Origin: Clostridia bacterium
Lineage (GTDB): Bacteria > Bacillota > Clostridia > Christensenellales > Pumilibacteraceae
Length of the DNA stretch: 64,000 nt
Direction of reading: 5' to 3'
Assembly: GCA_017500845.1 (NCBI GenBank)
Contig: JAFVXY010000022.1
Span: 17,948 to 81,947 of the forward strand
The position numbers and the translations under genes are program-made. The notes under the pieces are model-generated. The model was not told where the DNA came from. It was given only the letters and a program-made list of their open reading frames with translations, and did no database searches. Below, piece after piece: positions 61,747 to 64,000 of the stretch (the stretch's first letter is position 1; each line of letters opens with the position of its first letter).

Positions 61747-62035
61747 ACAAAAAAATCCATCTGCTAAAAGGTGAGGTTCTTATAACGACAGAAAGAGATA
61801 ACAAATCGGTTAGTAGCCGAAACGTTATCTCTTTTTCTGTTAGTGAAGTTTTCGCTACTGCGAAAGTGAAGTTGCGATGCAGTGAAGTTTGCCGATCACT
61901 TCACCGACAGGTGAAACTTCACTCACAAGGTGAACTTCACTATCAAAGATAACTTCACTTGCCCAAAGGGCAAACTTAGTTAGCGTGAATTGTCCGCTTT
62001 AGGACATCACGCTAAGCGCGGATGGATTTTTTTGT
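61747..62035. repeat. 289-bp palindromic element with terminal inverted repeats and AGTGAAGTT boxes
   Basis: The ends are a perfect 15-bp inverted repeat: ACAAAAAAATCCATC (61747-61761) and its complement (62021-62035). Inside are a terminator-like hairpin GAGATAAC/GTTATCTC (61795-61831), three forward AGTGAAGTT boxes (61842, 61865, 61881), three inverted copies (61915, 61933, 61951), and small palindromic spacers between them. A hairpin TTAGCGTGA/TCACGCTAA (61980-62015) follows. No ORF. It could be a MITE-like element or a repeated intergenic structure; no clear target duplication is seen. Confidence 0.8.
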
Positions 62036-62296: not shown

Positions 62297-62326
62297 TTGA
62301 CAATGATATTGAATAAGTGATAGAAT
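62297..62326 (+). promoter_or_regulatory. Promoter of the collagen-like lipoprotein gene
   Basis: TTGACA at 62297-62302, 18 bases, TAGAAT at 62321-62326. The predicted start near 62333 coincides with the first base of the structured leader. Confidence 0.8.
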
Positions 62327-62332
62327 ATATTT

Positions 62333-62503
62333 GCGACCCAACTTAATATTCACAGAAGCATACTTTCCTTAGGGCAATAGTGTGCCTTGTTTTGCTTTTA
62401 CAAATCTTCTGTGGAATATATTTTGTTGGTGTCGCAACCGGCAAACAATGCCACTTTGCTAGTGTCGTCTGTTTGTTGGCGACACTTTTTTATTTACAGG
62501 AGG
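62333..62503 (+). promoter_or_regulatory. Riboswitch-like leader with overlapping terminator
   Basis: Closing stem GCGACCCAAC (62333-62342) with GTTGGTGTCGC (62425-62435), one bulge. Inside it, CACAGAAG/CTTCTGTG (62351-62358 and 62406-62413) and AGGGCA/TGCCTT (62371-62388). A hairpin GGCA/TGCC follows (62440-62452), then an intrinsic terminator GTGTCG (62462-62467)/CGACAC (62480-62485) with a T-run, just before AGGAGG (62498-62503). The 3' strand of the closing stem, GTGTCGC at 62429-62435, can instead pair with GCGACAC at 62479-62485, which would prevent the terminator. No known riboswitch class was recognised. Confidence 0.7.
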
Positions 62504-62508
62504 CAGGT

Positions 62509-64000
62509 ATGAAAAAGAAGCTTTTATCGGTCTTTCTTTGCATTTGCTTGATTTTGACGGTAAGCTTGTTGTTTGTGGCGTGCGATCTCGAAAACGGAAC
62601 CGTGCTAGACGAATATCAGCAGGCATATGCAAGGTATGTGGTATTTGCGGAGACTAACGGCGAAACGGCGCTTAGCTACGAGCAGTGGCTGGAATCCATC
62701 AAGGGTGAGGACGGTATAACTCCCATGCTCAAGATGGAGGGTGACGTTATTTACGCATCTTACGATCAAGGCGAAACATGGACGCCGCTTGGCAATATCG
62801 CAGGCGCAGACGGCAAGGACGGCGTTGGCATACACTCTATCGAGAAGCATTCAACCGAGGGCAACGTAGACGTTTACATTATTACATATACGGACGGTAC
62901 AACGACTACCTTTACGGTTACAAACGGAATAGACGGCACCAATGGCGAGGATGGTACAGACGGCGTTGGCATTGATGACGTTCAGCTTGATGACGGCGAG
63001 CTGATAATTACATTTAGCGATGGCAGCTCGGTTAATCTTGGCAAGATAACGGGGGATAAGGGCGCAGACGGCAAGGACGGACTGGGCATTTTGTCGATTG
63101 CAAAAACCTCAACGCAAGACAATGTTGATACTTATACTATCACCTATACCGACAGCACTACCTTTACGTTTACCGTTACCAACGGTAAGGACGGTGAGGA
63201 TGGAAAGGATGGCATTACTCCTGAATTCAAGCTTGAGGATGGCGTAATTTTTGTATCTTACGATAACGGCAAGACGTGGACACCTCTTGGTAATATCGCA
63301 GGCGCAGACGGCGAGGATGGAGAAAACGGTGAAGACGGCGAGGACGGCGAGGACGGAAAAGACGGAATTACTCCCGAATTTAAGGTAGAAAATAGTGTTC
63401 TTTACGTATCTTACGATGATGGTAAAACATGGACACCGCTTGGCAATATCGCAGGCGCCGATGGCGAAGACGGAAAGGACGGAGCCGACGGCGAGGACGG
63501 AAAGGACGGAATTACTCCCGAATTTAAGGTAGAAAATAGTGTTCTTTATGTATCCTACGATGATGGCAAAACGTGGACACCGCTTGGTAATATTGCAGGT
63601 GCAGACGGTGCAGACGGTGAAGACGGAGCCGACGGCGAGGACGGCGAGGACGGCATTGGCATAGCAGGTGCTTATATTGATGAAGAAGGATACCTTATTT
63701 TAGTTCTTTCCAACGAAAAAACGATAGTTTGCGGCATGGTTAAGGGCTTGGACGGTATAGACGGCAAGCCCGGTGAGGATGGTAACGATGGCGTAGGCGT
63801 AGAAAGTATTTTTGTTAATAACGATGGCGAGCTAGTACTTACTTACACCAACGGAGAAACCGTAAACCTTGGTAAGGTAGTAGGCGCAAATGGCACTAAC
63901 GGCACAAACGGTGCTGATGGTAAAGACGGCGTAGGCATAGCAAACGTAACGCTTACCGAGGCTGGCGAGCTTAGTGTAGAGCTTACCAACGGCACGTTAA
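62509..64000 (+). CDS. Modular lipoprotein with collagen-like linkers (partial, runs off the window)
   Basis: At least 497 residues; the frame is open to the last base. The signal peptide ends at lipobox FVAC. Residues ~30-70 contain a module ending EQWLESIKGEDG, of the same kind as in the HtrA-type protein at 37280. The rest alternates Gly-x-Asp/Lys-Asp-Gly linkers (GADGKDG, GEDGEDG) with two beta modules: ITPEFKVENSVLYVSYD then GKTWTPLG, and I-T-Y-T-D-G-T-T-T-T-F-T-V-T-N-G. Two ~144-nt units (from 63367 and 63511) are nearly identical in DNA. Likely a surface stalk or adhesin; expression appears controlled by the leader upstream. Confidence 0.85.
   Translation, partial: MKKKLLSVFLCICLILTVSLLFVACDLENGTVLDEYQQAYARYVVFAETNGETALSYEQWLESIKGEDGITPMLKMEGDVIYASYDQGETWTPLGNIAGADGKDGVGIHSIEKHSTEGNVDVYIITYTDGTTTTFTVTNGIDGTNGEDGTDGVGIDDVQLDDGELIITFSDGSSVNLGKITGDKGADGKDGLGILSIAKTSTQDNVDTYTITYTDSTTFTFTVTNGKDGEDGKDGITPEFKLEDGVIFVSYDNGKTWTPLGNIAGADGEDGENGEDGEDGEDGKDGITPEFKVENSVLYVSYDDGKTWTPLGNIAGADGEDGKDGADGEDGKDGITPEFKVENSVLYVSYDDGKTWTPLGNIAGADGADGEDGADGEDGEDGIGIAGAYIDEEGYLILVLSNEKTIVCGMVKGLDGIDGKPGEDGNDGVGVESIFVNNDGELVLTYTNGETVNLGKVVGANGTNGTNGADGKDGVGIANVTLTEAGELSVELTNGTL

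Follow-up and report, generated by a model that had tools for sequence, protein, structure and literature searches.

The preQ1, SAM-II, ZTP and fluoride riboswitches contain pseudoknots, and in each the expression platform shares a strand of the pseudoknot. T-box and amino-acid leaders act by attenuation, in which an antiterminator competes with a terminator. The c-di-GMP-I and c-di-GMP-II riboswitches are leader RNAs found before adhesins and surface proteins, and passages of two reports associate those of Clostridioides and Bacillus with collagen-binding surface proteins (PMC7423583, PMC6447587). Passages of a further report describe candidate structured RNAs of the human microbiome, found by comparative analysis of gut bacteria (Fremin and Bhatt 2021, PMC8040213), which is also how the present family was found.

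The leader described here lies on the forward strand of a 64,000-nt stretch of DNA from a Clostridia bacterium, the whole of which we call the window. It precedes a gene for a collagen-like lipoprotein (62509–64000) that extends beyond the end of the window. Judging from its sequence and those of its relatives, it probably switches transcription in cis by means of an aptamer-like domain, and would represent a new orphan class of riboswitch. Like the c-di-GMP riboswitches it stands before surface proteins, but it has no Rfam match at threshold and its presence is not linked to GGDEF proteins. As in the preQ1, SAM-II, ZTP and fluoride riboswitches, one strand would be common to the pseudoknot and the antiterminator if the pseudoknot that we propose is right; the leader differs in that this common strand falls outside P1, the closing stem, and in having no Rfam match at threshold. 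Competition between antiterminator and terminator is held in common with the T-box and amino-acid leaders, but here again there is no Rfam match at threshold, and the 25 commonest downstream families listed include none of aminoacylation or amino-acid biosynthesis. The passages of PMC8040213 do not describe the leader; the supplementary motif lists of that survey fall outside this comparison, and overlap with them is possible.

All 4227 models of Rfam 15 were scanned against the window and 48 homologous loci (18 of the 48 solely at the gathering threshold). None reached its gathering score on the leader, the T-box model included, in keeping with the preliminary description of this DNA, which had seen no match to the signatures of c-di-GMP I/II, SAM, TPP, FMN, T-box, purine, lysine, glycine, fluoride, ZTP and yybP-ykoY. 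In the window there are sub-threshold overlaps with mir-64, SNORA48 and eiav_FSE in the sense direction and with Spd-sr07 on the other strand. Among the homologues SCARNA7 overlaps one leader in the sense direction (L036; 24.6 of 65 bits), and tmRNA overlaps another in the antisense direction (L020). All are far below threshold and were dismissed as chance; the weak matches of a further scan lie clear of the leader. A literature search covering some of the surveys, apart from their supplementary motif lists, gave no description of the leader, nor is it described in the passages found in PMC8040213, PMC11109978, PMC8632094 and PMC7266159. We have filed the leader family as new and absent from Rfam 15, of a riboswitch-like attenuator kind.

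The leader in the window is preceded by a sigma-70 type promoter, TTGACA-18-TAGAAT (62297–62326), that has 11 of 12 consensus bases and a TG before the second hexamer; 4 nt separate the end of the −10 box from the motif. Just 5′ of the leader (61850–61975) dense direct and inverted GTGAAGTT/AACTTCAC repeats are visible by eye. The RNA from 62331 to 62494 folds with −57.5 kcal/mol, compared with −33.7 ± 3.3 kcal/mol for shuffled sequences (z = −7.1; 0 of 200 as good). P1 is the outermost helix of this fold, formed by segment a (62331–62342) and segment b (62425–62437, with U62430 bulged), and is assigned from folding and covariation. Within it lies an internal loop with a conserved UNAAUA element (62343–62350; sequence and family alignment), followed by the 5′ arm of P2 (62351–62358). 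The apical hairpin P3 (62359–62384, arms 62359–62364 and 62379–62384) carries a GGYA-like loop and is assigned by covariation. Segment J (62386–62395), proposed from a family test to form a pseudoknot by pairing across P1, comes before the 3′ arm of P2 (62406–62413); both P2 arms are supported by family covariation and by a test that needs no alignment. Directly after P1 is segment c (62438–62447), the proposed switching segment, whose partners would be c′ in an antiterminator or J in the pseudoknot. The intrinsic terminator, found by folding and by terminator detection, is a 9-bp hairpin (62461–62486) with a U run extending to 62491, and c′ (62470–62479), identified by folding and a family complementarity test, lies within it. 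In the antiterminator fold a small CACU:AGUG hairpin (62452–62464) takes up the first part of the terminator 5′ arm. The Shine-Dalgarno sequence AGGAGG follows at 62498–62503. The preliminary description of this DNA had drawn a promoter at the aptamer edge, a closing stem around a multi-helix domain and a terminator before the ribosome site, and all three stand.

Searching with the DNA sequence gave a single paralogue within the source genome (72% identity, E = 1.7e-15), where it stands before a gene for a lipoprotein with BspA-type leucine-rich repeats, and a single copy within a sister genome; over the aptamer this search gave no match in 6 of the 8 genomes of the genus. A covariance model built from these two sequences and the window found 12 places in 8 of 74 genomes of the taxonomic family (E up to 1). 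A second model of 9 sequences (E up to 0.1) gave matches in 17 of these 74 genomes and, when applied to the order, in 48 of 396. A third, of 72 sequences (E up to 0.01), matched 89 of the 396 order genomes, spanning 29 of 142 genera, and 51 of 245 class genomes, spanning 36 of 158 genera; in a phylum-wide sample of 398 genomes the source genome was the sole match. The order, class and phylum samples overlap in part. These tallies count genomes, and the matches listed within a genome, as many as 11, may include strand echoes: the near-palindrome makes a place match on its opposite strand as well, and the four matches in the source genome fall in two places. A pattern scan of named genomes found at least 119 stretches, nearly all in Clostridia MAGs. 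Two carriers are titled like isolated strains and not as MAGs, Clostridia bacterium UC5.1-2E3 (L181) and Lachnospiraceae bacterium MD329 (L178). A spot check with 46 loci gave matches to the third model in 43 (L147, L154 and L172 among them had helped to build it), and L119, matched weakly at 34.9 bits, was counted as false and left out. The set of 209 instances includes four pattern matches judged false (L119, L126, L143 and L174). The first three were removed ahead of the P3 parse and promoter count, and all four for the terminator count and the alignment-free tests of P2, c:c′ and J:c, leaving 205. The exact pattern, which sees only part of the family, occurs in one stretch of a viral collection, also a true model match; with this single stretch a phage element is disfavored. 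As judged from these comparisons, the leader belongs to a large family of structured RNAs that is widespread in gut Clostridia, and it stands before genes of many related genomes.

Two complete promoter-leader-terminator cassettes lie close together on one strand in each of L111 (5740–6210) and L229 (60–480), with closing stems that have diverged but are compensated. In L184 (5465–5775) and L185 (7263–7570) model matches lie ∼105 nt apart on the same strand. It seems that the leader duplicates as a unit together with its promoter. Copies that are almost identical by eye occur in L082, L086, L091, L120 and L131, from bins labeled Clostridia, Firmicutes and Gastranaerophilales; by the same inspection this looks like misbinning or recent transfer.

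Compensating changes in homologues are plentiful. Across 95 distinct sequences 92.5% of cells are paired, and there are 458 both-side changes compared with 127.8 ± 10.4 on shuffling. When the partners were slid by 1–3 columns only 66–106 such changes were seen. In the unshifted alignment both-side changes occur in 6 of 7 base pairs of P1, 8 of 8 of P2 and 6 of 6 of P3. RNAalifold applied to the 72-row alignment recovered P1 and P2, and not P3. Because the covariation alignments were fitted to a model, we added a test without alignment, comparing cognate with permuted duplex energies for sequences less than 70% alike. For P2 the cognate value was −17.3 kcal/mol and the permuted value −6.2 ± 0.3 kcal/mol (n = 66; 0 of 1000 permutations). 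Members found by the model are selected for P1–P3 pairs, and the 26 members found by pattern were therefore tested separately; their search pattern required the arms of P1 and the UNAAUA element but nothing more, and is blind to P2. These gave −17.9 versus −7.3 ± 0.6 kcal/mol (0 of 1000). The same test is circular for P3, and was excluded from the evidence. A hairpin parse assigned P3 in 148 of 209 instances and none in 61, the window among them, with some parsed hairpins visibly wrong. In the UNAAUA element the A, A, U and A are present in 89, 95, 94 and 92 of 96 rows respectively, values partly ascertained through the search pattern; in nonredundant members found by the model AATA is present in 46 of 57, for an expected fraction of 0.18. 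The 5′ leader contains a conserved structured domain, of which the conserved unpaired core is small, comprising UNAAUA and the GGYA-like loop.

The promoter lies outside both the model and the search pattern. Its −10 box ends 4–5 nt ahead of the motif in 182 of 205 copies; the promoter score is ≥11 in 85% of copies compared with 6% of shuffled upstream sequences. These 205 are the 206 instances less L172, which has too little upstream sequence, with L174 still included; they were not thinned for redundancy, the −10 end was sought 1–14 nt upstream, and the shuffles were simple. Since the −10 spacing is fixed at 4–5 nt, transcription would start inside the first base pairs of P1, given the usual distance to the start site. 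A terminator was detected 3′ of the motif in 196 of 205 copies.

The preliminary description proposed that closing stem and terminator are linked by a 7-bp alternative pairing of the P1 3′ arm with the terminator 3′ arm (b:a′). The complementarity is present, GTGTCGC (62429–62435) with GCGACAC (62479–62485), but it is not the main switch. Forcing this pairing in the window costs ∼7.5 kcal/mol (−49.6 versus −57.1 kcal/mol). Across the family cognate b:a′ pairs are only a little better than permuted ones, −8.6 versus −7.9 ± 0.15 kcal/mol (n = 92), with 0 of 300 permutations reaching the cognate value, and we have rejected it in this role. The pairing of c with c′ is 10 bp by eye and was forced as 9 bp in the fold, giving an antiterminator state of −56.2 kcal/mol in the window with P1 kept intact. 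P1 and the antiterminator can coexist in the window, and the switch is therefore not set by P1 alone. Once the terminator arm is complete the terminator state is at −57.1 kcal/mol, 0.9 kcal/mol from the antiterminator. When the RNA ends at 62479 or 62482, the most stable fold is the antiterminator (−55.6 and −56.2 kcal/mol respectively), a rank that it keeps until the terminator 3′ arm is nearly finished.

For the family, c was defined as the ∼20 nt after P1 and tested against the 5′ half of the terminator, again free of alignment. Pairing within the own leader gave −16.1 kcal/mol and with other leaders −9.5 ± 0.4 kcal/mol (n = 63; 0 of 1000); for the 26 pattern-found members the values were −15.3 and −9.8 ± 0.6 kcal/mol (0 of 1000). 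The control, c against the terminator 3′ arm, leans slightly the same way (−6.0 versus −5.6 kcal/mol; 9 of 300). Six or more c:c′ pairs are possible in 90 of 92 nonredundant members. Terminator and antiterminator thus exclude each other in these leaders, and the complementarity on which this depends is conserved. At equilibrium the terminator is better by 4.9 ± 5.0 kcal/mol on average, and the antiterminator is within 3 kcal/mol or better in 34 of 92 members. With the terminator favored in most members, kinetics would have to decide the switching. The J:c pairing gave −6.8 versus −5.4 ± 0.3 kcal/mol when permuted (n = 38, the window not among them; 0 of 1000), a modest effect, and a shifted control shows the same tendency (15 of 300). 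In the window, by eye, 62389–62395 could pair with 62441–62446 with one bulge. It is likely that c is the toggle strand, with c′ or J as partner; the c:J pseudoknot is the more weakly supported pairing.

These results support interpretation of the leader as a riboswitch or attenuator, with c:c′ replacing b:a′ as the main switch pairing. Of the outcomes that the preliminary description had named as counting against it (a hit to a known Rfam class, a lack of covariation, a lack of the leader before related genes) none was found. We suggest that a ligand would stabilize the pseudoknotted domain and so tie up c in J:c. This would leave c′ free and the terminator would form, so that binding of the candidate ligand turns the gene off. 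Without ligand, c:c′ would form once c′ is transcribed, leading to read-through and the gene being on. A fuller reading, for and against which the balance is roughly even, is of an orphan class across many genera of its taxonomic class (named matches being mainly in gut Clostridia) that responds to some unrecognized signal, not c-di-GMP, and turns surface-protein genes off, with the transcript starting at the first base pairs of the aptamer and c toggling outside P1. The downstream genes point to no metabolite. Several copies occur per genome, before unrelated genes. When one kind of leader controls many unrelated genes, the signal that it reports is often a global one. The family precedes lipoproteins, BspA-type repeat proteins and others in poorly cultured gut Clostridia. 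The domain and switch strands are delimited and the family is large, and the question of the ligand is therefore directly testable.

An RNA-binding protein might instead dock on the domain and favor terminator or antiterminator, which we consider rather unlikely. Such a protein-bound attenuator would have the same switch anatomy; the small unpaired core is consistent with it, and the many unrelated downstream genes would fit one trans-acting regulator. But the domain is ∼85–115 nt in size with three helices and a probable pseudoknot, and this exceeds the needs of most attenuator proteins. Moreover, the commonest families of first downstream genes (25 of 58 and 25 of 282 listed) include no obvious candidate regulator.

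A riboswitch is also to be preferred to a stand-alone sRNA or constitutive 5′ structure, where a terminated RNA of ∼155 nt would be the main product with leakage into the gene. That is improbable, although most copies have their own promoter and terminator, the terminator is favored at equilibrium in most members, and 23 of 204 instances gave no downstream gene. In the other 181 (167 nonredundant) the first downstream gene was identified, with a ribosome site, and it starts 60–95 nt past P1 in 131 of the 167 nonredundant cases. Each leader preserves its own c:c′ complementarity, which would be superfluous for a plain sRNA.

It is very improbable that the leader is a c-di-GMP riboswitch changed past recognition by sequence models. 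The regulated genes are alike, in that collagen-binding surface proteins feature in the passages on the known examples (PMC7423583, PMC6447587), but no c-di-GMP model of Rfam reached threshold on the leader. No GGDEF protein was found in the source genome (75% complete; E up to 1e-5). At the same cut-off, and with some genomes incomplete, GGDEF proteins were found in 26 of 89 carriers versus 120 of 307 non-carriers; 63 of 89 carriers are thus without one found, and the trend is in the opposite direction (Fisher p = 0.10). Presence of the leader does not track GGDEF proteins, and c-di-GMP is therefore unlikely as the ligand. That the leader is a DNA element and not RNA, such as a recombination or phase-variation site or an integron-like hairpin, is scarcely credible: it is a long near-palindrome in multiple copies with neighboring duplicated cassettes, but promoter spacing, strand-specific terminator and c:c′ complementarity are all RNA-level features, and no attC consensus was seen by eye.

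The protein encoded downstream in the window has a lipoprotein signal by eye, and a Pfam collagen match of 28.0 bits against a cut-off of 27.2. A loose pattern finds a lipobox-like signal in 72 of 167 nonredundant downstream proteins. Domain scanning of 150 (17 proteins of 57–128 aa being omitted) gave LRR_5 in 48, Flg_new in 9, Zn_Ribbon_1 in 9, collagen in 4, and TIR and ABC transporter families in 2 each. Lipoproteins and BspA-type repeat proteins are the commonest, and by these predictions surface proteins are the commonest downstream class, not the sole class. In L018 and L025, from ∼1688, the leader precedes zinc-ribbon proteins with a DIFICY motif fitting a TIR domain, and therefore not all the downstream genes encode surface proteins. 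The two TIR_2 matches among the 150 may or may not be these proteins. L002 and L012, from two genomes, have a near-identical leader and signal peptide around 1440–1760 with differing mature proteins, which we read as replacement of the gene body that follows the leader. In a relative of the same genus (L014, 1210–1460) a different inverted-repeat sequence stands before another lipoprotein, and is possibly another attenuator.
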